Shown here: positions 16,914 to 37,047 of the stretch, piece after piece
Layout: each line of letters opens with the position of its first letter
How positions within the stretch are numbered: position 1 is the stretch's first letter
IMG/VR virus record: IMGVR_UViG_2209111020_000001
Span: 1-37,069 of that record
Strand: one strand, 5' to 3'
From: a virus
DNA: 37,069 nt
Made by a program: the position numbers and the translations under genes
The notes under the pieces: model-generated
Told to the model about the DNA's origin: nothing
The model's database searches: none
Seen by the model: the letters and a program-made list of their open reading frames with translations, nothing else

Positions 16914-18587
16914 TCAGATCATGCTGCTGTACTCGTCAAACTTATCTTTCAAAACAATGTATCCATCAGCCAGTGAAGCCACTCCGTCAATTCGTTTACG
17001 GTTGTCCATGCCTTTCACTAGCTGAATATTGCCGTTAATGTCTGCCTTGATTTCCGTATTGCTTAGGCACCACATGTCGATTGGATGGCCATTATGGATG
17101 ATCTTCCCAGCATGCAGATCCGCTTTCAATTCCTTCAGCGGCTGCGACATCGTTGCCGGTCCCTGCCGGATTGGAATCATGCTGTTTGGTCCGAACTCCC
17201 CCTGAAACATGCGCAGTGTCGAATCATCAACATGCCAAGGATCGTAACCGATGTACAAGATATATAAATCATCATCATCACGTAGTTCTTTGAACCAGTT
17301 CAGGAAAACGATCTTGTCTACCTTGTTCCCCGGATATGACCGAAGCAGGCCCTGACGTTCCCAGAGCAGGTATGGAACGCTATCTCGTTCCCGACGGTTG
17401 CCATCTTGCGTCATCTGGTTCAGCACTTCTTCCGGAAGCCAGTACATGGACTTCAGGTAGATCTTGTCATCGTTCGGACGCATGCACAGCGCGTGAGCGC
17501 TGTTTAGGTCCGTCGTATCGGCAGCATCGAAGCAACCGATACCATAGCGGAAACCCATCTTGTCAAATTCGAACCGTTCCTTATTCTCGATCTCGTCCCA
17601 AGTGAGCCAGGCGCTTGCCGAGTTTTCCTTGATGTTAAAATCTTTCACCATAACGGTCGGCCGAAAGCCTGGGTCCTGCTTTGCCTTTTCAACATTCCCT
17701 TTCAGATACTCGAACGACTTGATCGTTCCCAGACCCGGGTTTGCCTTGATCCACATTTTCGAGTTGTCCCACTCATCGCGATCATCCAACTCATAGATCA
17801 GCGGCAGGAAACGATCGTCTTTGATCTTCCCATCCAAAACACCGATTGCGTAGTCATACTGAGCATCAAAAATACTGCCACGGACAAAACCGTTTGTCGT
17901 GATACAGGTCAAAAGCGGCTGACGACGTGAGGACATCGACTGCTTCATTAAGTCGTAAATATCGCGGTTCTTAATGGCTGCCAGTTCGTCGATAATCACC
18001 GCGCTGGCGTTCAGGCTGTCCAGAGTATTCGTATTACTGGCCAGCGCCTTAATCGATCCGAGATTAAACGACGAATATAAATCTGACTGCCGCTTTCTCA
18101 AATGCCGGCGAATATCTGGGCTTTGCTTCGTCATGTTCCAGGCTTCGACGAATCCTTTTTTCGCCTGGTCCTGCTTCGTCGCAATGAAATAGACTTCCGG
18201 AGCACCTTCGCCATCGGCAATATCGAAGTACAAGGAATCGGCGGCAAGCTCTGTTGTCTTACCGTTTTTCCGTCCACGGATGTCCAGCACTTCCTGATAC
18301 TGCCGCTCTCCTGTCTGCGAATTGACGAAACCAAAAACCGCCTGATGCTTCGCCTTTTGAAAAAGTTGAAGTTCAAGCGGTGCTCCAATTGTACCTTGAG
18401 ATTGTTTGCAAAACTTTTCGATGAACTCAATCGGCCGGTTCCCGGCATCTTCATCAAAGATCCACGGTTTATACTTCTCCGGGTGTTCCAACTTGTCCAG
18501 AAGCATCTTGCAAACTTGCTTGATCCGGTGACAGGCGACGATCCTGCCACTCAGAACGGCGTGTGCGTAATCTTCCAGATAGGTCAT
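16914..18587 (-). CDS. terL: Terminase large subunit
   Basis: A 557-residue packaging motor. The ATPase domain has a Walker A-like RKNGKTT (Lys110, Thr111), Walker B AVIIDE (Asp200, Glu201) and the adjacent adenine-binding YFIATKQDQAK. The C-terminal RNase H-like nuclease has acidic residues in GCFDAADT (Asp354) and IGYDPWHVDD (Asp449). The length is normal for the Terminase_1 type that pairs with P27-family small subunits. Its start overlaps the small subunit stop (ATGA). Confidence 0.96.
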   Translation of the reverse strand: MTYLEDYAHAVLSGRIVACHRIKQVCKMLLDKLEHPEKYKPWIFDEDAGNRPIEFIEKFCKQSQGTIGAPLELQLFQKAKHQAVFGFVNSQTGERQYQEVLDIRGRKNGKTTELAADSLYFDIADGEGAPEVYFIATKQDQAKKGFVEAWNMTKQSPDIRRHLRKRQSDLYSSFNLGSIKALASNTNTLDSLNASAVIIDELAAIKNRDIYDLMKQSMSSRRQPLLTCITTNGFVRGSIFDAQYDYAIGVLDGKIKDDRFLPLIYELDDRDEWDNSKMWIKANPGLGTIKSFEYLKGNVEKAKQDPGFRPTVMVKDFNIKENSASAWLTWDEIENKERFEFDKMGFRYGIGCFDAADTTDLNSAHALCMRPNDDKIYLKSMYWLPEEVLNQMTQDGNRRERDSVPYLLWERQGLLRSYPGNKVDKIVFLNWFKELRDDDDLYILYIGYDPWHVDDSTLRMFQGEFGPNSMIPIRQGPATMSQPLKELKADLHAGKIIHNGHPIDMWCLSNTEIKADINGNIQLVKGMDNRKRIDGVASLADGYIVLKDKFDEYSSMI

Positions 18588-18949
18588 GATTTTACAAAGT
18601 CCATCAGTGCATCTTTCTTCTCTCTGTTCTTCCCATCACTCTGATCGGGCAGGAAATCGCAGAGTTGCTTGACGACTGAAGAATAATTTTTGATCATCGT
18701 GTTATAAACATCGACTTCGGGGCTTTTCTTAGTCCCAAATTGATTCTCGCCGTTTTTATATTCACTGATCACGCCGTTTTCATTGATCGCCTGCTGCAGG
18801 TCTTCCAAAGTCACCGCCATAAACGCTGCGTTTTTCATCAGCGACTGAACAGATGTCAGTTGATCTTTAGGCAACGTCTTGAAAATACGCTTAAGGCGGT
18901 TGAACTCTTTTCTTATCCTGTCATCTTTCGACAACTCCTTTGATGTCAT
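18584..18949 (-). CDS. terS: Terminase small subunit, P27 family
   Basis: A 121-residue, helical DNA-recognition subunit. Evidence is the position directly before the large subunit and the P27-type sequence (DRIRKEFNRLKRIFKTLP, AAFMAVTLEDLQQAINENG, SPEVDVYNTMIKNYSSVVKQLCDFL). It should bind the packaging site close by (see the candidate cos at 19046-19064). An AAGGAG precedes the ATG. Confidence 0.9.
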   Translation of the reverse strand: MTSKELSKDDRIRKEFNRLKRIFKTLPKDQLTSVQSLMKNAAFMAVTLEDLQQAINENGVISEYKNGENQFGTKKSPEVDVYNTMIKNYSSVVKQLCDFLPDQSDGKNREKKDALMDFVKS

Positions 18950-19892: not shown

Positions 19893-21268
19893 CCTGCTGC
19901 TCCTTTCACGCGTTCAATTCTTGCCTTCAGACTGTCGATCAACTGATCCTGCGTACTCTTTTTATCTGTTAGCCGCGCGACAACGTCCTCGTCCATGCCG
20001 CCTGTGACCGTCAGCAGGTGCATGATCACCTTCTCAGTTTGCCCCTGACGATGCAGCCTCTTATTTGCCTGCTCGTACAGCTCAAGACCCCATGGAAGCG
20101 AAAACCAAATGATGTGATTGCCGCCGTACTGCAGGTTCAGGCCATATGCCACGGATGCCGGATGCGCCAGAAGCAAATCGATTTTATGATTATTCCAGTC
20201 GTTCTTATCCTGACTAGTCCGATATTCGCGCACACGCAACTTTGACTTTTCCAGTGCTTTCAGGATCCGGATTTTATCGTGCTTGTAATTATAAAAGATC
20301 AGCGCCGGTTTTCCGTTCAGCCGTTCAATCAGTTCCAGTAAGGCTTCAATCTTGCAGTCGTGGATCTCAACGATATTTCTATCCCCGTCATACACTGCAC
20401 CATCACATAGCTGCAGTAGCTTATTGCCCAGGATTGCGGCTGTCCCTGCGTCAATCGTTGATTCATCCACCTGCAGAATCATATCTTTCTCCAGCTTCTC
20501 ATAGGCTTTCTTAGCCCGATCGTTTAGAATGACCGGTATTTTATCCGGTATCAAATCTGGAAGCTGAAGATAATCCTCTGACTTCATGCTGACGCAGATA
20601 TCACCAATCAGCCGATGCACCACATTATCCGTTCCGTCTTTTGGCTTGTAAGAATAAATACGATCATGGCCACGCTGATCCGGTTCAAAATACCGCTCCC
20701 GAAATCCGGATATCCGTTTTCCTAACCGCTGACCCTGATCCAAGAGGTACACTTGCGCCCACAGATCCATTAACCCATTCGGCGCCGGCGTTCCAGTCAG
20801 CTCAACAATCCGCTTGATATGCGGTCGAATGGCCTTCATTGCCTTGAATCGTTTCGCCTGATGATTTTTAAAACTGCTCGACTCGTCCAGGACCACCATG
20901 TCAAACGGCCAGTTGTTCTTGTAGTAATCCACCAGCCAGACAACGTTGTCCCGATTAATCACGTAAATGTCCGCCGGCGTGTTTAAAGCTCTAACACGCT
21001 TACTGACGGACCCTAGGCAGGTACTAAATCGCAGTAGCTTCAAATGGTCCCACTGTCCTGCTTCGTCCTGCCAGGTGGCTTCAGCAACCTTCTTGGGCGC
21101 AACAACCAAAACTTTACTGATCGAAAACCGGTTGTATTTCAACTCGTTAATTGCGGTTAGGGTTACTACAGTTTTACCTAATCCCATGTCAGCGAAGATC
21201 CCAGCCGCTGGCGTTTCAAGCTCTTTTTTAATCAAAAACTTTTGGTACTCGTGCGGTTTAAATTTCAT
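19889..21268 (-). CDS. SNF2-type DNA helicase/translocase
   Basis: A 459-residue superfamily 2 ATPase. Motif I is ADMGLGKT (Lys32, Thr33), motif II VVLDESS (Asp128, Glu129), motif III LTGTPAPNG, and motif VI contains ANKRLHRQGQ. The text ends shortly after motif VI, the usual length for the phage form. It belongs to the replication/recombination module together with the VRR-NUC gene it overlaps and the VapE-like gene; members probably process forks or remodel recombination intermediates. Confidence 0.94.
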   Translation of the reverse strand: MKFKPHEYQKFLIKKELETPAAGIFADMGLGKTVVTLTAINELKYNRFSISKVLVVAPKKVAEATWQDEAGQWDHLKLLRFSTCLGSVSKRVRALNTPADIYVINRDNVVWLVDYYKNNWPFDMVVLDESSSFKNHQAKRFKAMKAIRPHIKRIVELTGTPAPNGLMDLWAQVYLLDQGQRLGKRISGFRERYFEPDQRGHDRIYSYKPKDGTDNVVHRLIGDICVSMKSEDYLQLPDLIPDKIPVILNDRAKKAYEKLEKDMILQVDESTIDAGTAAILGNKLLQLCDGAVYDGDRNIVEIHDCKIEALLELIERLNGKPALIFYNYKHDKIRILKALEKSKLRVREYRTSQDKNDWNNHKIDLLLAHPASVAYGLNLQYGGNHIIWFSLPWGLELYEQANKRLHRQGQTEKVIMHLLTVTGGMDEDVVARLTDKKSTQDQLIDSLKARIERVKGAAG

Positions 21269-21545
21269 GGCAAATCACATCTCTCACAAAACCATCAACT
21301 TTTTCTTTGGTATCTATCACGCCAACCGTACATCCGGATTTTTTCAACTCGTTCATTTTTTTAATTTGCAGCGGCCTTGGCTTTCCACCTGGTCGTTTCA
21401 GCTCGATAAAATAAATCCGGTTATCCGGGAAAATAACGATCCGGTCTGGCACCCCATCATTTCCCGGCGACTCAAACTTATATGCTTTTCCGCCCGCCTT
21501 CTTAACTTGATCCCGCAGGTATGTTTCTATATCCCGTTCTATCAT
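21258..21545 (-). CDS. VRR-NUC domain nuclease
   Basis: A 95-residue single-domain PD-(D/E)XK nuclease of the virus-type replication-repair family. The active site is GVPDR (Asp34) and IELKRPGG (Glu48, Lys50). Such stand-alone VRR-NUC proteins can cut Holliday junctions or flaps. I start at the ATG at 21545 because AAAGGAG lies before it and the domain begins there; the frame is open to 21569. It overlaps the helicase gene by 11 bases. Confidence 0.93.
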   Translation of the reverse strand: MIERDIETYLRDQVKKAGGKAYKFESPGNDGVPDRIVIFPDNRIYFIELKRPGGKPRPLQIKKMNELKKSGCTVGVIDTKEKVDGFVRDVICHEI

Positions 21546-21600
21546 TTTCAGCGCTCCTTTTATGGGCAACCTTTACACGCGTATATAGATAGGATTCTCA

Positions 21601-21643
21601 TTTATGTAGCCATGATATAATTTCTCTACATAAACTACATAAA
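21601..21643. repeat. Three copies of a 9-bp element around an AT-rich core
   Basis: TTTATGTAG (21601-21609) faces two head-to-tail copies of its complement CTACATAAA (21626-21634 and 21635-21643). Between them lies TGATATAAT, an extended -10-like sequence on the plus strand. The region is upstream of the VRR-NUC gene and beside the iteron-like array. It looks like a protein-binding site or part of an origin. Confidence 0.6.
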
Positions 21644-21663
21644 TAACATTGTTATAGGTAAAA

Positions 21664-21810
21664 TAGGTTGATAGGTTGACAATTGCTAATAATCATTGAT
21701 ATATAGGCTTTTTTTTGTCAACTTTGGCGTCAACTTTAGGATTTTTAAAAGTTGATAAGGTTGACAAACCATATTTTTCCAAAGTTGATGCACTACTCCG
21801 AAGGTTGACC
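21664..21810. repeat. Iteron-like array of GTTGA motifs, candidate replication origin
   Basis: Eight copies of GTTGA or its complement lie in about 150 bases: a tandem TAGGTTGA pair (21664-21679), two GTCAACTTT 12 bp apart (21717, 21729), AAAGTTGAT and AGGTTGACAA (21748-21766), AAAGTTGAT (21781-21789) and AGGTTGACC (21802-21810). The stretch is very AT-rich, non-coding and sits between the VapE-like and VRR-NUC genes. That is the usual make-up of a phage origin; function is inferred. Apart from this and the 9-bp element, 21546-21812 holds no gene. Confidence 0.6.
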
Positions 21811-21812
21811 TT

Positions 21813-24293
21813 TTAAGGGCGCTTAAATCCCCCTTTTACTTTTCCATAGGGACCAAAATTATAACTGTTTGTCACCCGATCCCACCCTGGTATGTTTGCC
21901 AAAATGTCATTAATCTGTCGGCTATCGCGCCGGCGCATATAGCTGAGTTTATTGCTAAAACATTCCACCCATATTTCCTGCGCGCAGATGCGATCCCGTG
22001 TTTCTGTTTTCGGATGAACTGTTTGCCCTGCTGGAATTGGTTTGCCATACTCAAGATTCCAGTAGCTTGTCCGGTCGCTGATGTTCATTTTGTTCCAGCT
22101 TTTAAGCACCGGCCGCTCGATAAAATCAATAATTTGTGCTTCCCACGGATCCTGATCCTTGTGCGCCGCCTGCTGTTCCTTAGCTTCTTCTACCGCTTCC
22201 CCTGACAGCTCAAGGTTTTCGCCCAGCCGCCAATACATCACGGCTTCCGCCCAGATTTGATTCACTTCGTCATCAAGCAGCGGTCCATCAATTTTCTGGT
22301 CGCTAAAAATGCGTTTGGTTGGCTCGTTAATAGCTACATCGACCGGATAAAATCGGCGGTTTCCTGTCTCGTCCTGCAGATAAGTTGTATCGTTCGATGT
22401 TCCGAAAAAAATGCAGTGCCTTGGGTGCTTCTCCGCTTTTCGGGCATAGGCAGCCCGGTAGACGTCCTCTGTGCGTGTCAGGAAGCTTTTCATCAATCGG
22501 ATGTCTGAACGGGCAAAGGCGTTCAGCTCATCGATATTAACGATCCAGGCGCCGTGTATGGCCTCCAGCGCGTCCTTGCCCTCGAAGGTCTGGATGCTTT
22601 CGTTATACCAATGTGATCCTATTTTTTTAATGAATGTTGTTTTCCCGACGCCCTGCCCGCCGGTTAAAACGGTCATATAGTCATATTTTGTTCCCGGCTG
22701 CATAATGCGGGACACCCCGGCCACAAGTGCCTTGCGCGATACCTGCCGTACGTACTCGCTGCTTCGCGCCCCGAGATAATCGACGTACATGGTATCCAGG
22801 CGGTGCGTCCCATCCCAGATTAGGCTGCCTAGCCAGTCGACAATCGGATTAAACTGATGCCGTGCGGCGACTTGCAGCAGCGCTGCCTGGATGGTTTTTG
22901 TATCCTTGCATTCAATCAATTTTTCTATATAATTCATCAGGCCGTTGTCATCGAACTTTTCATCCCATTCAAAGTCTCCTACTTCACCCCGGCGCGGTTC
23001 CCATGGCATCGGTGCGGTCCCAATGACAGCCTCAGAAAAGCAGTCCCAGCGGATGCGTCCGGATAGTTTAGGGTCACCCTCGAGGATAACCTGTACATTT
23101 TCGATCGACTTTTTAATGCCGCCCTGCCCGTTGATTGCCAGATGCGTCATAAACTCGCCGTCGGTATCGTTTACTGTATCCGTATGGTCTTGTTTGGCAA
23201 CGCCGAAGTCATCCTGTGCGGAAGCATAGGCTTCTTTTGCCCTGTCCTTGGCTACCTGTTTATCGCCGGCAGCAAGCTTTTTCATAGCAGCATAGCTTGG
23301 CATCTTCGGCATCGGTGTTCCCGGGTCCGCGTCCTTGTCCAGGTCCCCGAATTTATGCAGGCGCAGCAGATCAAAACTGTTGACCAGTTGCTCACTGCAG
23401 GGATCCGTTGCATGGTGCGAGTAAAGAAATAACCCGTTGTCATAGACAATTGCTCCGCCGACGGTTGATCCGCCGGTGTAGGTAAACCGGTCTGCCCGGT
23501 CATCAACCGGCTCATAAGTATGCGGCAGAAATTGCTCCATCACGGCGTAGATGTCGTACTGCCGGCACCAGTCGCCGATCAGGTCAGTTCGCTGGGTGGG
23601 GTCTCCTTTTTTATCAGCCAGGCGCTTATGCTCCGCTGTTTCATCGCCCGTCACCGGCCATTCTTCGATATTTCGCCAGTCTCCGTAGGTGCTGAGCAGC
23701 CCCTCTACAGAGATAAATGGTCCGTCACAGGATTCCTTGATAACAAGAGAGTCTGCGCAGCAGGTCGGCCAGTACATCAGCCGTTCCGGCTCGAACGTTG
23801 TATGGTCCATCATGCCGATGCCGATCAGCGCAGCCATCTTGCGCGCACATGGCTCATATTCGTCAGCGGTTGCCGTTCGGTCAAACGGAAAGACGATCCG
23901 CAGGCGCGGACGTGCCGGCTCGTGCTTCCGGGTTGAGTAGACGCACCAGGAGCAGTTAAACGAATTCAGCTTCTTTAGGATGCTGTCTGTGTCGCCTGCG
24001 GGCACGTTGTCGAGGTCCAGCGTCAGAAGGTCGCGCCCTGTAACAGCTCCTTTCTTCCGGCGGTTGTTCTGCAGCGTGCCGCCGACAAAGCCCCCGACGT
24101 CCTTCAGGCTGTCCTGCTTTGACTTGGGTAGCTTCAGATAGTCCTGCAGGGTCTCGGTGCCACGCGCGAAGACGGACAGTCTGCTGACGAGTTCCGACCA
24201 CATCATGGTCTGCGGCTGCCACAGCTTCGCCGTGCGACTGCCGCCTGTGGATATCGTTATTTTTCTGTCGTTATTAACGGTCATCGTGCTCAC
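21813..24293 (-). CDS. VapE-like primase-helicase (prim-pol plus helicase)
   Basis: An 826-residue replication protein. The N-terminal third resembles the archaeo-eukaryotic prim-pol fold, with LTLDLDN (90-96) and RPRLRIVFPF (128-137). Residues about 400-780 are the VapE-like P-loop domain: Walker A TGGQGVGKTTF (545-554) and Walker B WIVNIDEL (583-590), followed by KSFLTR and an arginine-rich stretch (GNRRFYPVD) typical of the family. It probably primes and unwinds at the phage origin; the iteron-like array follows the stop. Length is normal for the phage two-domain form. Confidence 0.9.
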   Translation of the reverse strand: MSTMTVNNDRKITISTGGSRTAKLWQPQTMMWSELVSRLSVFARGTETLQDYLKLPKSKQDSLKDVGGFVGGTLQNNRRKKGAVTGRDLLTLDLDNVPAGDTDSILKKLNSFNCSWCVYSTRKHEPARPRLRIVFPFDRTATADEYEPCARKMAALIGIGMMDHTTFEPERLMYWPTCCADSLVIKESCDGPFISVEGLLSTYGDWRNIEEWPVTGDETAEHKRLADKKGDPTQRTDLIGDWCRQYDIYAVMEQFLPHTYEPVDDRADRFTYTGGSTVGGAIVYDNGLFLYSHHATDPCSEQLVNSFDLLRLHKFGDLDKDADPGTPMPKMPSYAAMKKLAAGDKQVAKDRAKEAYASAQDDFGVAKQDHTDTVNDTDGEFMTHLAINGQGGIKKSIENVQVILEGDPKLSGRIRWDCFSEAVIGTAPMPWEPRRGEVGDFEWDEKFDDNGLMNYIEKLIECKDTKTIQAALLQVAARHQFNPIVDWLGSLIWDGTHRLDTMYVDYLGARSSEYVRQVSRKALVAGVSRIMQPGTKYDYMTVLTGGQGVGKTTFIKKIGSHWYNESIQTFEGKDALEAIHGAWIVNIDELNAFARSDIRLMKSFLTRTEDVYRAAYARKAEKHPRHCIFFGTSNDTTYLQDETGNRRFYPVDVAINEPTKRIFSDQKIDGPLLDDEVNQIWAEAVMYWRLGENLELSGEAVEEAKEQQAAHKDQDPWEAQIIDFIERPVLKSWNKMNISDRTSYWNLEYGKPIPAGQTVHPKTETRDRICAQEIWVECFSNKLSYMRRRDSRQINDILANIPGWDRVTNSYNFGPYGKVKGGFKRP

Positions 24294-24700: not shown

Positions 24701-25171
24701 TCAACTGCGTCGTTTCTTGATTCGCCGTTTTTCAAGAATGCTATTTAATCGGTCATGACCGCAGTGATAAGTTTTTGCAATGTATCGCAGTGTGTGCCCC
24801 TCCTGGTACGCCTGCGCGATCAGCGCTTCATCTGTGATAATTCGTCCGGTGCGAATACCGTGGACATGCTTCCATCGCCGAAGGGTTGTAACGGCGACTG
24901 ACAGGGCTTCTGCGATCTGATCATCCGTCATCCCTCTGTTTCGGTAGCCGTGATACTGCGGTACCCGTAGAGTCAGCTTGTGCGCTGGCTCAGGAGTTGC
25001 CTTGTGCTCCATTTCGGCTAGCTTTGTACCGGCAGCCCGGATCTCCGCATACAGGGAACAGGTGCCACAGCTGCTGTCTGGGTGCGTTGTAATGTATCGG
25101 CGTGGGCAGTCACCGCATCGGTCCAGCAGGTCGCTGATAAGCAGTCGTTGTGCTTTTGCTTGTCCATCCAT
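24701..25171 (-). CDS. Putative DNA-binding protein with Cys pairs and helix-turn-helix
   Basis: A 156-residue protein. Residues 19-39 contain two cysteine pairs (CGDC ... CGTC) that could bind zinc. Residues about 79-105 (RGMTDDQIAEALSVAVTTLRRW) and 115-150 (DEALIAQAYQEGHTLRYIAK) look like two helix-turn-helix units, the second followed by a basic tail (KRRIKKRRS). It probably binds DNA as a regulator in the early region. Not assigned to a named family. Confidence 0.75.
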   Translation of the reverse strand: MDGQAKAQRLLISDLLDRCGDCPRRYITTHPDSSCGTCSLYAEIRAAGTKLAEMEHKATPEPAHKLTLRVPQYHGYRNRGMTDDQIAEALSVAVTTLRRWKHVHGIRTGRIITDEALIAQAYQEGHTLRYIAKTYHCGHDRLNSILEKRRIKKRRS

Positions 25172-25824: not shown

Positions 25825-26421
25825 TCACTCCCGTAGTCCAGCTGTAATTGCCATTTCACTGCATGATATAATAAATTTATTGATGACTTTCCATGATGTA
25901 GCGACCGGAATACCGCATTCCCTACCAGCGGAACTGATGGTTCTGTTTTCATTAAGATAAACAGCGATTAATTTTCTATGTTCTTCTCGGTATATCTGAG
26001 ACATTGCACAATTAGTTATGAAATTAATATCCATTTTTTTATCAATATCCGGAGCGTGTTTATCCTCAATCAGATTGGAAAATGTATCCTCTTTTCCATT
26101 TTTTATAGGCTGGTCAAGGGTCAATGAAAGGTATTTGAAAAAAATTTTTCGCTTTTTATTTTCATTAAAGAGCCGATAGGCGATACGTTTTGATGCGTAG
26201 GCTTCGAATTTTTCAGCTCTATCTGTATCGCATGTTTTAACGCTTTCCCAAAAAGCCTCGATAGCTCCGATAAAGGCATCGTCAAAGTCAACGTATTTAA
26301 ATTTGATTTTTCTTGTCAATGATTTAATCATTGGTAGAAAGTGATTAAAAAGAGTAGTGAAGTCGTCGTCATTTCCTTGTTGGTAAGAAGTGATTAATTT
26401 CTTTAGCTCATCGGCATTCAT
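25825..26421 (-). CDS. Phage-encoded sigma-70-like factor
   Basis: A 198-residue protein with the layout of a small sigma factor. Residues about 8-95 resemble region 2 (FTTLFNHFLPMIKSLTRKI, then YVDFDDAFIGAIEAFWESVKTCD, KFEAYASKRIAYRLFNENKKR). Residues about 145-190 resemble the region 4 helix-turn-helix (ENRTISSAGRECGIPVATSWKVINKF). The match is distant but the order, size and core-binding acidic segment fit. It is more AT-rich than the surrounding DNA. It may redirect host RNA polymerase to middle or late promoters, in addition to the RinA/ArpU-like protein. Strong AGGAGG upstream. Confidence 0.72.
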   Translation of the reverse strand: MNADELKKLITSYQQGNDDDFTTLFNHFLPMIKSLTRKIKFKYVDFDDAFIGAIEAFWESVKTCDTDRAEKFEAYASKRIAYRLFNENKKRKIFFKYLSLTLDQPIKNGKEDTFSNLIEDKHAPDIDKKMDINFITNCAMSQIYREEHRKLIAVYLNENRTISSAGRECGIPVATSWKVINKFIISCSEMAITAGLRE

Positions 26422-29879: not shown

Positions 29880-30593
29880 TCACATCGGCTGTCCCGTTAT
29901 GGGGTTGATACGCTGCTGCGGTTGCTGCTGATAGGTCTGCGGCGCTGCCTGTGGCTGCTGAGAAGCCTGTGCTGGATTGTTTGGGATTCCGTTCCAGACG
30001 CTGGCACCGTTGCTCAGAGGCGCTCCGGGCGCTCCGGGTGCTCCGAAGTCTGACGCTGCTTCAGGTGCGGATGCTCCGAGTGGTTCGCCGTCACGGGTTT
30101 TCATCACATTAGTTGAGATGTAGCAGCCAACGCCTTTTTTTCCGTGGCTATCGTAAGGGTTGAAGTTAAGCGCAACGCGTCCGTACATGCCGCTGTATAC
30201 CTCGGTGGCGTCCATGAGTGGCTGTAGGTCGGGACCGACGATCTTCGGTGGATAGTCGATGCTTGTTGATGCCGAAAGCACGTAGCAGCCGTGGCACTCC
30301 GCGCCAAAGGGCATGCCGTCAGAAGGTTTGACGCCGTCGCCGTCATGAATCGGAACATTCACTACCGGAGGGATAACGCCGTTCCATTTTTCGGCTTTTC
30401 CTTTTTGTTTCGCTGCTTCGACCGCTCCATTGATTGCGGACATGGTGGCATTGTCACTTTTTTTAATAAGCATGGTAAGGCTGAACTTTGGATCCCCGCC
30501 ATACTGGCTTTCCTGCGGCTTCAGCAGATGTACAAAGCTAAAGCGGACTTCACCGGTTACAATTCTGGTTGCATAATTATTTGAGTTTGGCAT
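29880..30593 (-). CDS. DUF2815 protein, probable ssDNA-binding replication factor
   Basis: A 237-residue protein of the DUF2815 family: GEVRFSFVHLLKPQESQYGG, PKFSLTMLIKKSD, and AFNPYDSHGKKGVGCYISTN-like text in the middle. A disordered Gln/Pro/Ala-rich tail ends in RINPITGQPM, much like the acidic or disordered tails of single-stranded DNA-binding proteins. The ATG at 30593 has GAGGAG upstream and matches the usual family start. The frame continues to 30764 without a stop, adding 57 residues (see the separate entry). Confidence 0.88.
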   Translation of the reverse strand: MPNSNNYATRIVTGEVRFSFVHLLKPQESQYGGDPKFSLTMLIKKSDNATMSAINGAVEAAKQKGKAEKWNGVIPPVVNVPIHDGDGVKPSDGMPFGAECHGCYVLSASTSIDYPPKIVGPDLQPLMDATEVYSGMYGRVALNFNPYDSHGKKGVGCYISTNVMKTRDGEPLGASAPEAASDFGAPGAPGAPLSNGASVWNGIPNNPAQASQQPQAAPQTYQQQPQQRINPITGQPM

Positions 30594-30764
30594 TTTATAA
30601 TTGCTCCTCTTCTTTTTTGGTCTCTGGATTTGTCTTGTTTCGAAGCGCCATTTAAGTGCATTTTTACCGATTCTGTCCCACAGCTTATCTCGGGCAACTT
30701 TTTTCGTTTCTTCTTTGATTCCGAAGACGAATTGATGAGAAACGGTGCTGTAGATGCCGAACAT
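30594..30764 (-). CDS. Conserved small ORF fused in frame to the DUF2815 gene
   Basis: These 57 codons encode a short protein-like segment (starts MFGIYSTVSHQFVFGI, then KKVARDKLWDRIGKNALKWR and a basic end). From memory, a stand-alone protein of this kind (M-x-G-I-...-F-V-F-G-I-...-K-W-R-F) precedes DUF2815 in related phages. Here no stop codon separates it, so translation from 30764 would yield a 294-residue fusion, while the internal start at 30593 yields the normal DUF2815 protein. The start overlaps the DUF2800 stop. Confidence 0.62.
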
Positions 30765-31948
30765 TAGCCGAAATCTTCCTTTGCATCCACGACGTTCGTC
30801 ACTGCTGCCCGCTTGTCCGTGATTGGTGCGAGCGTTGGCTTGCCCGGCCGCTTCTCAATAAGACCCGGCTTAACCAACAGCTCATTGTATTGCTTTTTCT
30901 TCAATATCTTTTCTACCTTTGGCACGGTTAGCGGCCGGCGTTCGTAGAGCAGCGCTTCATCAATCCCACTGTCGGTCAGGTGCTTAAACGCTTTGTCAAG
31001 GTCCACGTAGTTCCGTGAGCCCCGGCCTTCTACGGCCTTCCATCCGGGGATATCTTGCCCGCTTAGGCACTGGCTTAGGGCAAACTCCTTGATGCTGTCG
31101 TACCAGTTCACGATGTCCTTGCCGCGTTCCAGCGCAGCGGATAACTCGTCCGGTGACAGGAGTGCGGCTTTTTTAGCCGGCGCTCCAAAGTCTTTTTCCA
31201 AGCTGAAAAACTTGTCTGTGTAGGCTCGGCATTGCGCTTTCGCCCGGCAGAACCGGCACCAGTCGCCGGGTACAAACTCGCCTTCTCCTTTGTACGCGAG
31301 TTCTGCTGCGCCCATCACAAAATTAGTGCCCCAGTATTCAAGATCGAGCTGATCAATCTGCCATTCGCTGATGCTGTTCAAGCGCGGCTGAATGATCGCT
31401 AGATGCACTTGCTCAACCGGATACAGGATGCCGTACTTCTTCAACGCACCAAGCGCGTACAGCATCATTTGCGGATTGTGTTCTGCTGAGACGGATACAC
31501 CCTTTCCATACTTAAAATCGTTGAGGAAAAGCGTGTCCCCTTCGATCATGATGCAGTCTGCCGTTCCGAAGCCGCCCGGCGCATAGGCGCTATAGTCCAT
31601 CTGCTGTTCCACCGTGACGAACGGACGGTTCTTGCGGCTCAGCGCCAGTTCTTTCAGGTATTCAAGATAAGTGTCCGTGTGCTTCAGCATTTCGTCATCG
31701 TAATGCGGATCCGCTTTAAACGGCTTCATCCGTTTAGTAAACTCCCGGCTGGACATCGGTTCCAGAAAATACTGCCGCAGCTTCAGCTCGGCGATCTCAT
31801 GCGCGATGGTGCCCTCTTTCGCAAAGTCGCTGGTTGTGTCCGGAAACTGATCCTCCAGCCGGGCACTCGGCGGACAGTTCAGCCACTTATTGGCTCCGCT
31901 GGCGCTTAGCAGCGCATGGCTGCGGTGTGCGTGGTCAATCGGTTTCAT
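30764..31948 (-). CDS. DUF2800 protein, Cas4/RecB-like PD-(D/E)XK nuclease
   Basis: A 394-residue nuclease. Family motifs are LSASGANKWLNCPPSARLE at the N-terminus, EGTIAHEIAE (His in the conserved GTxxHE), GFGTADCIM (Asp of the active site) and FLNDFKYGKGV (Asp and Lys of the active site). A Cys cluster CRFCRAKAQC near residue 230 may bind metal or an iron-sulfur cluster as in Cas4/AddB. It is part of the phage replication-recombination module. It overlaps the next gene by four bases. Confidence 0.92.
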   Translation of the reverse strand: MKPIDHAHRSHALLSASGANKWLNCPPSARLEDQFPDTTSDFAKEGTIAHEIAELKLRQYFLEPMSSREFTKRMKPFKADPHYDDEMLKHTDTYLEYLKELALSRKNRPFVTVEQQMDYSAYAPGGFGTADCIMIEGDTLFLNDFKYGKGVSVSAEHNPQMMLYALGALKKYGILYPVEQVHLAIIQPRLNSISEWQIDQLDLEYWGTNFVMGAAELAYKGEGEFVPGDWCRFCRAKAQCRAYTDKFFSLEKDFGAPAKKAALLSPDELSAALERGKDIVNWYDSIKEFALSQCLSGQDIPGWKAVEGRGSRNYVDLDKAFKHLTDSGIDEALLYERRPLTVPKVEKILKKKQYNELLVKPGLIEKRPGKPTLAPITDKRAAVTNVVDAKEDFG

Positions 31949-33580: not shown

Positions 33581-33780
33581 ACTGCCGCACCTTCTTTTCT
33601 AAGAGCTTGTTCCAGTTCATCAAACAGAGGTGTGATTGGCATCTTATGCTCGCCCCAGAAGCGCAGGTAGTGAATGGCCAGCCGCTCATCGGTGTAAGAC
33701 AGATCAGCAATCTTTCCCGGTATGGCGGCGGCTTTGCGAACGATTTCAGGATCAATTGGTAAGAAAGGTTCAGACATCAT
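33577..33780 (-). CDS. Unknown protein (67 aa)
   Basis: A 67-residue helical protein (PEIVRKAAAIPGKIADLSYT, DERLAIHYLRFWGEHKMPIT, PLFDELEQALRKEG). Not recognised. It overlaps the antirepressor gene by 11 bases and has a GGCGGTG site before the ATG pair. Confidence 0.7.
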   Translation of the reverse strand: MMSEPFLPIDPEIVRKAAAIPGKIADLSYTDERLAIHYLRFWGEHKMPITPLFDELEQALRKEGAAV

Positions 33781-34396
33781 TTTTCACCGCCTTGTATTTC
33801 CTGTAGATAGCCTTGCTGACATGAACATCAAGTCCGAAGCGATCCTTAGCTACCATCAGATCGACCGTGTCGCTTAGAATCGGTTCCCTTTCTTTCAGCA
33901 TGTCTGGCGTCATTTGTTTCTTTCCAATCATTTTCGAATATCCATGCAGGGTGGATATGGCCTTGTTGGCGATCGTGTTCGCTTTTAGGTAATGCTTTTG
34001 CTTCGCACGGTCAATCCCTGCATCTAGGTCGGCCATCTGCTTCTTTTGAAAATCTTTGTCCAGCATCCGGAACACTTCGAAACCAGCAAGACCTGACGAT
34101 TCACGGAGCTTTTTCAGCATTTCAAATACCCATTCCTGAAATGCTTCTGCTTCGGGCTTATGACTGTTGAAGATGGCTTTGTAGATGCCGAATTCCGTCA
34201 GAGCCAAATATTTTTGATTCATGTCCGTCATTTTGACGTACACGAGATATTTTTTATCAATGTGTCTAACCATTGAATTAGCATCTCGATAGTTCAAAGC
34301 ATCGGATATGTCCTTAGATATTGCCGCCCATGCGCCTGGTTTAACTTCGACAAAACGAATCTGATGATTCGCCCATATTTCAGCTTTAAGCTGCAT
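33770..34396 (-). CDS. BRO-N domain antirepressor-like protein
   Basis: A 208-residue protein. Residues about 1-95 are a BRO-N domain: FVEVKPGAWAAISKDISDAL, ANSMVRHIDKKYLVYVKMTD, YLALTEFGIYKAIFNSHKPE and AFQEWVFEMLKKLRESSG. The C-terminal half has a KilA/antirepressor-like helical region. Such proteins bind DNA or the repressor and push the switch to lysis. I start at the ATG at 34396 (GGGAG eight bases upstream); the frame is open to 34438 but that part covers the operator-like sequence 34416-34432. Confidence 0.85.
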   Translation of the reverse strand: MQLKAEIWANHQIRFVEVKPGAWAAISKDISDALNYRDANSMVRHIDKKYLVYVKMTDMNQKYLALTEFGIYKAIFNSHKPEAEAFQEWVFEMLKKLRESSGLAGFEVFRMLDKDFQKKQMADLDAGIDRAKQKHYLKANTIANKAISTLHGYSKMIGKKQMTPDMLKEREPILSDTVDLMVAKDRFGLDVHVSKAIYRKYKAVKNDV

Positions 34397-34415
34397 TAGC
34401 AAGCGCTCCCTTTTA

Positions 34416-34432
34416 GTACCTTTAAACGGTAC
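34416..34432. promoter_or_regulatory. Third operator-like palindrome (before the antirepressor)
   Basis: GTACC-TTTAAAC-GGTAC is the exact complement of the operator in the leftward promoter (34708-34724) over 16 bases. It overlaps the end of the Cro-like gene and lies 20 bases before the antirepressor start. No good -35/-10 surrounds it, so it may be an auxiliary operator for looping or a roadblock. Confidence 0.7.
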
Positions 34433-34670
34433 TATCACTTAAATTTTTTTCATCCTCATCAAACTTACCGTCGTCAACAATCGGGACACGGATAAGTTCT
34501 TCCGGTAGTCCATACAGATTTGCAGCCTTGCGAAAGATATGAGCGGGAATTACAGTTTTTCCTGTTTCGTAATTGCGAAGCGTCTTTGCCGTAATACCAA
34601 GCTTAGGAGCGGCTTCAGTCTGCAATAGTTCAGCATTTACTCTAGCTGCGGTCAATGAAATTTGAAACAT
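34422..34670 (-). CDS. Cro-like helix-turn-helix regulator
   Basis: An 82-residue XRE-family protein (MFQISLTAARVNAELLQTEA, then PKLGITAKTLRNYETGKTVI). The helix-turn-helix spans about residues 8-55. It is the first gene of the leftward early operon, divergent from the repressor, as Cro is in lambda-type switches. I start at the ATG at 34670 because GAGGAGGTGC stands in front; the frame is open to 34730, which lies within the promoter. The acidic C-terminus is unremarkable. Confidence 0.87.
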   Translation of the reverse strand: MFQISLTAARVNAELLQTEAAPKLGITAKTLRNYETGKTVIPAHIFRKAANLYGLPEELIRVPIVDDGKFDEDEKNLSDSTV

Positions 34671-35517: not shown

Positions 35518-37047
35518 TTGCGTGTTGTTATTTACATTCGCGTCAGCACAAAGATGCAGGCCACAGAGGATAAATATTCCCTCCGCGCGCAGAAGACGGA
35601 ACTGGAAAACTACGTCAAGCGTATGAAGTGGCAGCTGGTCGATATTAAGCAGGACGTCGACTCCGGCGGAAAGTTTGATAAAAAAGGTCTGGATGAACTC
35701 ATGGATATGGCTGACACCGGCAAGATGGATGCCGTGCTTGTGCTTGATCAGTCCCGCCTGTCGCGTCTGGATGGTCTGCACTGGGAAATGCTTAAAGCTG
35801 TACTTAAGCAAAATAATATCAAGCTGGCTGAGCCTGGCCGCATGGTCGACCTTAACGACGACGTGCAAGAGTTCATGAGTGACATCCAAAACTGGTTCGC
35901 CCGCCGAGGTCGTAAGGACATTGCTAAAACGATGATGCGCGGCAAGCGTCAGATGATGCGTGAGGGAAAGTTCTGGGGCAGGGTACCGCTGGAATACGTC
36001 TACAACAAAGAGACACACACGGCCCGCAAGCGACCGGGATATGAGTGGGTCATACCGATGATCGACAAGCTGTTTCTGCATGATCAGGCCGGCTATGTGA
36101 CGATCGCTAATCAACTAAACAAGATAAAATACCAAGCTAATGGCCGGCCGTGGAACGAAACACTGGTTTATCGACGGTTGGTTTCGAAAGCCTTTCACGG
36201 CGTTGCTGAAAAAACTTTTGCCACCGGAGAAACGATCCGAATGGATGACTTTTACCCGCCGATGCGGACGCTGGAAACCTATCAGGCAATACAGGAGGAG
36301 ATCCACCGCCGTCATGTGCAGTATCGCACCTACTGGAATCCGAGTGGGCAAATCCATATGCTACGGCGCGTCAAGATGACCTGCGGCATGTGCGGCCGGG
36401 TGATCGCGCTGGAACAGCACGGGAAGGGAAATTATACAGCCTTTTATCTGAAGCATGGCCGCAAACGAAAACTTTCTGACCGGTCCGTATGCAGTATATC
36501 CATCAACACAAAACGGTGTGACCGGAATATTATCCAGGCAATCAAGGATATTTTGACCAGCGAACGATTAGCGAAAAGGTATATCGACTTATCGGATGAC
36601 TCAGACAAGATAGATGCACTTAAAAAAGAACAGTCGGTCGTCATCAAATCAATTAGCAAGCTCAACGAGCGCATGGACCGGCTTATGGATCTGTATCTGG
36701 ATGGTAGTTTCGATAAAGGTGAGTTGGATGACCGTAAGCATAAAATTGATCAGGAACGGTCGGCGCTGGCTAGCCGGCAGAATGAGCTGAAAGTGAAGCT
36801 CGACCTATTGGAAAAGAACCAATGGAATTACAAAATGATTTATGCGTACATGAAGCTGGCCAGAAATTTTGATACTGACCTGACACCACTTGAGCAGGCG
36901 CAGATGATCGGCAATCTGTTTCCGACTGCCACAGTGTACCTGGACAAGCTGGTGCTCCATGGCCGCCTGCCGATTGGAACCGTGCTTGATGTGACGGTGG
37001 GAATTGATCAAACGCATGTCGGAATTAAATATGGACTTAATGGGTAA
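35518..37047 (+). CDS. int: Large serine recombinase (integrase)
   Basis: A 509-residue site-specific recombinase. The N-terminal catalytic domain starts with VVIYIRVST (Ser10 nucleophile) and contains VLDQSRLSR with the active-site arginines. Residues about 150-300 are the recombinase domain (GKFWGRVPLEYVYNKE). A zinc ribbon follows (CGMCGRVI ... CSI...C), then a coiled-coil motif (about 355-440, IKSISKLNERMDRLMDLYLD, DQERSALASRQNELKVKLD). The start is TTG with AGGAGGTG upstream. It integrates and, with a directionality factor, excises the prophage. The attachment site should lie close to this end; only 22 bases remain after the gene. Confidence 0.96.
   Translation: MRVVIYIRVSTKMQATEDKYSLRAQKTELENYVKRMKWQLVDIKQDVDSGGKFDKKGLDELMDMADTGKMDAVLVLDQSRLSRLDGLHWEMLKAVLKQNNIKLAEPGRMVDLNDDVQEFMSDIQNWFARRGRKDIAKTMMRGKRQMMREGKFWGRVPLEYVYNKETHTARKRPGYEWVIPMIDKLFLHDQAGYVTIANQLNKIKYQANGRPWNETLVYRRLVSKAFHGVAEKTFATGETIRMDDFYPPMRTLETYQAIQEEIHRRHVQYRTYWNPSGQIHMLRRVKMTCGMCGRVIALEQHGKGNYTAFYLKHGRKRKLSDRSVCSISINTKRCDRNIIQAIKDILTSERLAKRYIDLSDDSDKIDALKKEQSVVIKSISKLNERMDRLMDLYLDGSFDKGELDDRKHKIDQERSALASRQNELKVKLDLLEKNQWNYKMIYAYMKLARNFDTDLTPLEQAQMIGNLFPTATVYLDKLVLHGRLPIGTVLDVTVGIDQTHVGIKYGLNG

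Follow-up and report, generated by a model that had tools for sequence, protein, structure and literature searches.

A putative SaPI-type replication origin between the VapE-like helicase and VRR_NUC genes of phages, and a candidate code for its iterons

The 267 bp between the genes of a VapE-like primase-helicase and a VRR_NUC nuclease are, with a probability of about 0.87, a putative origin served by a self-loading initiator, the phage-wide version of SaPI-type origins. The window, by which we mean the whole stretch of DNA analysed, is a 37,069-base IMG/VR virus record. A candidate origin of the VapE-like protein had been proposed at this place by a sequence-only reading, and its iteron idea is well supported by the conserved place and layout of the repeats and by protein-DNA covariation. 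Three points are revised: DNA is most likely read by the C-terminal winged helix and not by the N-terminal region suggested for a gel shift, relatives do not share the CTACATAAA element, and origins of a similar kind have been described.

The repeats between the VapE-like and VRR_NUC genes

One end of the window encodes an integrase-type serine recombinase (35518-37047) and a BRO-type antirepressor (33770-34438), and terminase and lysin genes are found further along. The replication block lies on the minus strand, in the order ssDNA-binding protein (PF10991), A-family polymerase, several small genes, VapE-like gene, non-coding stretch, VRR_NUC and SNF2 helicase. The non-coding stretch is bounded by the VapE-like stop (21813) and by VRR_NUC, and its G+C content is 31%. 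The longest VRR_NUC frame starts with a TTG at 21569; judged from a ribosome-binding site and the N-termini of relatives, the ATG at 21545 appears to be the likelier start.

Other genes of the window deserve mention. A protein encoded upstream of the VapE-like gene (25825-26421) has a sigma-70 region 2 match, and sigma-like proteins are annotated near VapE in phage phiCDKH02 (L030) as well. An HTH_23 protein is encoded at 24701-25171, also upstream of the VapE-like gene. A DUF2800 protein with a PD-(D/E)XK nuclease match (30764-31948) adjoins an Enc34-type ssDNA-binding protein (29880-30764), and the two are possibly a recombination pair.

Features of the region (coordinates in the window, strand):
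21813..24293, minus: VapE-like primase-helicase, proposed self-loading initiator (PF05272, E 1.8e-76; phrog_256, E 2.4e-279)
21813..21998, minus: C-terminal winged-helix part (about residues 766-826), proposed iteron-reading domain; residues 788, 810, 818, 820
21801..21809, minus: iteron 1, GTCAACCTT
21781..21789, minus: iteron 2, ATCAACTTT
21757..21765, minus: iteron 3, GTCAACCTT
21748..21756, minus: iteron 4, ATCAACTTT, abutting iteron 3
21729..21737, plus: iteron 5, GTCAACTTT, inverted
21717..21725, plus: iteron 6, GTCAACTTT, inverted, 12 bp from iteron 5
21681..21716, no strand: AT-rich spacer from the inverted pair to the tandem pair (42 bp start-to-start), candidate unwinding element
21672..21680, minus: iteron 7, GTCAACCTA, first of the tandem pair
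21664..21672, minus: iteron 8, ATCAACCTA, second of the tandem pair
21565..21573, plus: putative distal inverted copy, degenerate, GGCAACCTT, at the place of the relatives' distal copy
21258..21545, minus: VRR_NUC nuclease gene, closing the region (PF08774, E 8.7e-6; phrog_93)

Eight GTTGA-type motifs in AT-rich non-coding DNA beside the VapE-like gene had been reported from the sequence, and all eight were recovered: exact matches of GTTGA/TCAAC lie at 21667, 21675, 21718 (-), 21730 (-), 21751, 21760, 21784 and 21804. This cluster is far beyond chance, with eight motifs in 142 bp against three in the densest other 150 bp of the window and no more than five in any of 200 dinucleotide-shuffled versions of the entire window. 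GTCAACYTT occurs four times in the entire 37-kb record, each time inside the intergenic region. All eight sites are 3' of the VapE-like stop codon at 21813, and none is inside the initiator gene. The GC skew of the window has no inflection at 21.7 kb and gives no origin signal.

Non-coding, AT-rich and repeat-rich regions serve termination, packaging and recombination in phages, and the stretch has all of these properties. That it is a site of this kind and not an origin is nevertheless extremely unlikely: the terminase genes (16914-18949) lie about 2.7 kb away, a terminator scan of the intergenic region found no terminator-like site, an Rfam search of 21400-22000 gave no family match at E up to 1, and the covariation described below is with the DNA-binding domain of the helicase.

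Place and layout of the repeats in related phages

For comparison, loci with VRR_NUC and VapE relatives were collected from viral contigs, from ten named phage records and from 160 further loci. The named phages include Paenibacillus phage Pd_22F, Staphylococcus phages 3A and 2638A, Enterococcus phage phiFL4A, Listeria phage LWP01, Clostridioides phage phiCDKH02, Fusobacterium phage phiPaco and Corynebacterium phage Adelaide. A scan of genome contigs with the VapE of the window alone gave no confirmed relative, an alignment scan that followed the single-protein scan gave 80 loci, and a DNA-level search of the named phages returned weak pieces only. The relatives come mostly from Bacillota. VRR_NUC is located downstream of VapE in 179 of 188 loci, with a gap of mostly 240-330 bp.

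Scoring was possible for 186 of the 188 loci, two being lost to contig ends, and the 186 include repeated contigs and the window itself. An intergenic 6-mer is repeated more often than in any of 100 shuffles in 171 of them. A score of at least 6 was reached by 165/186 gaps, compared with 0/186 stretches upstream of VapE and 1/186 inside VapE, which establishes the place of the repeats. The remaining 15 relatives (L062, L132, L148, L151, L183, L192, L195 and others) have no repeat exceeding all shuffles, and some of them may have moved or very degenerate origins.

The repeat cores vary among phages, as seen when the gaps of the window, 22 loci and the ten named phages were read by eye. Cores observed in relatives include TGTATAC, TGTCTAC, TGTAAC, TGTTAC, GGCAAC, TGATGCAACA, ATGGATAC, GGTAACG, GACAACC and GGGACAAC, among others. 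A fixed pattern, GTTGAC-N6-GTTGAC-N6-GTTGAC, was tried and rejected; none of the loci has it, and both core and spacing differ between phages.

What recurs is the layout: direct copies, inverted copies, an AT-rich step of about 43 bp, a tandem pair and a distal inverted copy, typically with 7-12 copies over about 250 bp. In 154/171 loci an inverted copy lies 36-59 bp ahead of an oppositely oriented copy that has a partner in tandem or inverted arrangement, the commonest step being 42-46 bp. Of these 154 loci, 132 have a tandem pair, 104 an inverted pair and 93 a distal inverted copy. Inversion combined with a step of 41-47 bp was seen in 125/171 loci, whereas random placement gave a mean of 27.7 and a maximum of 44 in 500 trials. 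Mean G+C over 127 loci is 0.32 in the spacer and 0.34 in the stretch after the tandem pair, compared with 0.52 in the VapE genes. The same intergenic layout was seen in phages 3A (L027, TGATGCAACA), 2638A (L031, CGTCCCTTT/GGCACG) and phiFL4A (L028, ATGGATAC).

As a control, 80 VRR_NUC loci of viral contigs were picked regardless of VapE, 79 of which could be scored. Repeats with a score of at least 6 were found in 36/47 loci with VapE upstream, in 1/7 with a weak VapE match and in 5/25 without VapE. Conversely, nine VapE loci have no VRR_NUC match; downstream sequence of about 2.5 kb is available for four of these, three of which carry repeats. Both counts show that the repeats go with VapE.

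Could the repeats be operator sites for the regulation of VRR_NUC and later genes, bound by the VapE-like protein or by some other DNA-binding protein of the phage, the origin lying elsewhere? The region is upstream of VRR_NUC, and a promoter-like TTGACA/AATGAT pair is present on the gene strand at 21721-21692. However, promoter-like matches are not far above shuffles (four found; shuffle mean 1.6, sd 1.4), the number of copies and the recurrent 42-47 bp step with inversion exceed what an operator needs, and the repeats track VapE and not VRR_NUC. We therefore regard a purely regulatory role as unlikely, and the two readings are not exclusive, since autoregulation by an initiator is compatible with origin function.

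The predicted winged helix and its covariation with the iterons

The VapE-like protein consists of an N-terminal PrimPol-like domain, a D5/SF3-type helicase and a C-terminal winged helix. An AlphaFold2 model of residues 690-826 (pLDDT 86) has helices and short strands, a predicted fold that reads as a winged helix. Its only strong Foldseek match is PDB entry 7pds, PriRep1 bound to dsDNA (E 1.6e-5), and it aligns to chain B of that entry with Z 13.0 and an rmsd of 2.7 over 107 aligned residues, the next entry having Z 5.3. The full model matches 7pds with Z 35.6 over 434 residues, and the two proteins are similar in sequence (E 1.4e-78); the protein in 7pds was deposited under the name 'Similar to D. 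nodosus vapE'. The N-terminus of the full model (residues 9-212) matches the cyanophage PrimPol 6zp9 with Z 9.5.

For 131 non-redundant loci, similarity between iterons was related to similarity between proteins in successive windows along VapE, with the rest of VapE as a control. The covariation peaks at VapE residues 791-820, with a partial r of 0.243 compared with 0.137 for the highest window outside the C-terminus. The N-terminal region had been suggested for a gel shift; this peak makes the C-terminal winged helix the most likely DNA reader instead. The best window of VRR_NUC, a nuclease equally close to the gap, reached 0.152, which means that linkage contributes, and the best sampled SNF2 window reached 0.070. 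Four of the best ten covarying columns are in the last 60 residues (0.7 expected), and in 65 phylogenetically independent pairs the top three of 637 tested columns were 792, 812 and 818. Columns 417, 449, 559 and 576, outside the C-terminus, rank high too.

For single bases, the iterons were anchored at their common AC, and the 6/131 loci without AC were left out. Among all 826 columns, 818 performs best for the iteron core. A base-by-column map of 152 loci (125 training, 27 hold-out) gave 818 as the best column for p-3, p-2 and p-1, 820 for p+2 and 788 for p+3, while the best columns for p-5, p-4 and p+4 are outside the C-terminus. The strongest residue-base link is that of residue 820 with the base after AC. 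Where p+2 is C or T, K occurs 50 times and R 3 times; where it is A, K occurs in none and R in 70. In independent pairs, 17 double changes were as predicted and none opposite, with one change of the base only, two of the residue only and 38 pairs unchanged. The window itself has TGTCAACTTT together with K818 and K820, in line with this pattern. A divergent VapE group (L376, L367, L365, L356 and L423) has wings such as KPVRG, KQAKG and KTVRG and iterons GTTACC/GTAACC, and fits the 818/820 patterns poorly.

A first hold-out set was drawn from two further scans and comprised 50 VapE proteins, none as much as 92% identical to any of the 188 earlier ones (median best identity 57%), 42 of them with a significant repeat. 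Three truncated loci, five without a significant repeat, seven without the layout and eight without the AC anchor were excluded, leaving 27. A second set held 18 non-redundant loci, of which three were below the repeat threshold and one lacked the layout, leaving 14. The 820 rule gave 2 x 2 counts of 4, 4 / 0, 18 (p 0.005) in the first set, 5, 4 / 0, 5 in the second and 9, 8 / 0, 23 (p 8.9e-5) when pooled. On the hold-outs the rule is one-sided: K occurs only with C/T and A only with R, and C/T occurs with R in 8/17.

A two-class rule for 818, in which C/G at p-2 goes with a polar residue, was strong in the training set (44, 10 / 5, 66; p 1.9e-18); frozen, it was not confirmed in the first hold-out (5, 4 / 4, 14; p 0.11). 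Training frequencies of residue by core did predict residue 818 in the 20 hold-out loci with cores that the training set contained three or more times, with 27.4 bits against 8.5 for the next column and 0/5000 shuffles as good. The link of 788 with p+3 is not established, because p+3 and p+4 in the first hold-out were best predicted by columns far from the C-terminus.

A different protein, for instance the HTH protein with its gene upstream of VapE or host DnaA, might instead recognise the iterons, the VapE covariation then reflecting linkage, of which VRR_NUC does carry some signal. We consider this very unlikely. DnaA boxes (TTATCCACA) were not seen in the region of the window and were found in only 2/131 intergenic regions of the relatives, and the gene annotated directly before VapE varies among the ten named phages. 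Linkage, moreover, does not predict covariation that is strongest at single winged-helix residues (820 with p+2, 818 with p-1 to p-3, 788 with p+3). Binding of the iterons by the C-terminus of the VapE-like protein is the putative role to which the residue-base covariation points.

That protein and repeats change together points to an evolving lock-and-key code. At somewhat less than even odds, the region may belong to an extensive class of phage origins whose initiators and iterons drift in step, governed by a simple wing code, and form recognition groups without cross-reaction. The class would span phages of Bacillota and, by the named examples, of Fusobacterium and Corynebacterium. On the same tentative reading, 820 may set the base after AC (K a pyrimidine, R an A) and 818 may set the core (for example V GTAAC; L GTTAC/TATAC; R/K TCAAC; N/Q ACTAC). 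The code may read differently in 3A, 2638A and phiFL4A because their cores have no AC anchor. If the code is true, one or two residues could re-set origin specificity, and the groups would split, with satellites or co-infecting phages perhaps supplying the pressure.

Proposed mechanism, known systems and further elements

We propose that the VapE-like protein acts as a primase-helicase of the PriRep1 (SaPI) type, whose C-terminal winged helix would read the iterons TGTCAACYTT. Recognition of the core, together with the base that follows AC, would fall to wing residues 818-820; the next base (p+3) may be read by residue 788, which lies where the recognition helix begins. With four direct and two inverted iterons on one side of the AT-rich spacer and the tandem pair on the other, about 43 bp start-to-start, two helicase assemblies could be placed facing the spacer, which would then open. 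Unwinding would then proceed outwards, each putative hexamer working with the primase domain that it carries and with the A-family polymerase of the phage.

A PriRep1 structure has reportedly been described by Qiao et al. in 2022 (cited in PMC10061031), and work on the Sfi21 origin is also reported. In lambda-type origins, iterated sites likewise serve a phage initiator (O in lambda); the lambda iterons are part of the O gene, and the helicase that O brings in is that of the host, whereas the sites described here lie beyond the initiator gene, whose product is a helicase in its own right. Geminivirus Rep is an unrelated rolling-circle initiator, unlike the winged helix of a helicase proposed as the reader here. 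The likeness to geminiviruses is that the core differs among related viruses: according to PMC12548392, closely related geminiviruses differ in their iterons, each recognised by the cognate Rep.

The closest known systems are staphylococcal, and they are described relatives of a make-up for which the sequence-only reading knew of no described origin. According to PMC7581432, the C-terminal domains of SaPI Rep and of Cch2 bind iterons directly downstream of their own genes; for SaPI origins, where the iterons follow rep, it cites Ubeda et al. 2007. Our region resembles SaPI origins in having iterons directly 3' of the helicase gene and in the match of helicase and C-terminal domain to PriRep1 in sequence and fold, the likeness being judged from iteron place and initiator homology and fold. 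It differs in that these are phages with an A-family polymerase of their own, and with VRR_NUC and SNF2 helicase genes following. The SCCmec Cch2 site (AAGTG iterons) shares an initiator-like helicase, direct repeats downstream and C-terminal binding; as PMC7581432 describes it, it has three iterons only, another helicase family (Primase_Cterm) and no phage.

No description of iterons for the phage VapE-VRR_NUC module was found in the literature searched, most subscription journals being outside it. Within that literature the SaPI-type kind is known, and what appears to be new is the conserved layout across a broad phage class and the candidate wing code. The resulting sequence rule locates a probable origin in very many phages with a VapE-VRR_NUC-SNF2 module, and a domain and residues can be named that would set origin specificity. 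More than 100 natural initiator-iteron pairs become available for studying initiator-origin coevolution, and predictions follow as to which phages or satellites could share replication proteins or steal them from one another.

Between the tandem pair and VRR_NUC the window has further elements:
21635..21643, plus: CTACATAAA copy, arm of a 10-bp perfect inverted repeat with 21600-21609
21626..21634, plus: CTACATAAA copy
21601..21609, minus: CTACATAAA copy
21578..21585, minus: TATACGCG element, common to relatives (TACGCG enrichment)

Three exact copies of CTACATAAA in mixed orientation, as reported before, are indeed the only ones in the window (0.24 expected). Shuffles were scored for any 9-mer because CTACATAAA was chosen post hoc; 29/2000 shuffles of the 243-bp stretch 21570-21812 contained a 9-mer at least three times, so the triplet stands out, though far less than the GTTGA cluster does. 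No other fetched locus has three copies. CTACATAAA is a minor feature of this phage, not conserved in relatives, which have a different element (GCCTAA) in the slot. The extended -10-like core of the sequence-only reading exists as TGATATAAT between two CTACATAAA copies, and the promoter scan found no -35/-10 pair at that place. A hairpin at the element was rejected as unconvincing (z -1.58; 14/200 shuffles fold equally well). Inverted arms of at least 8 in this slot occur in 32% of 127 relatives compared with 15% in shuffles, a modest excess.

After the tandem pair, GCCTAA is found in 69/127 regions of relatives (5.5 expected) and TACGCG in 57/127 (8.1 expected). The window has TATACGCG and no GCCTAA, with the CTACATAAA copies in the GCCTAA slot. 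In relatives such as L006, L017 and L030, GCCTAA/CGCCTAAT forms a second conserved element 20-110 bp past the tandem iterons, at times paired with an inverted TTAGGC, and TATACGCG is located nearer VRR_NUC. Both GCCTAA/CGCCTAAT and TATACGCG recur across phages with different iteron cores.
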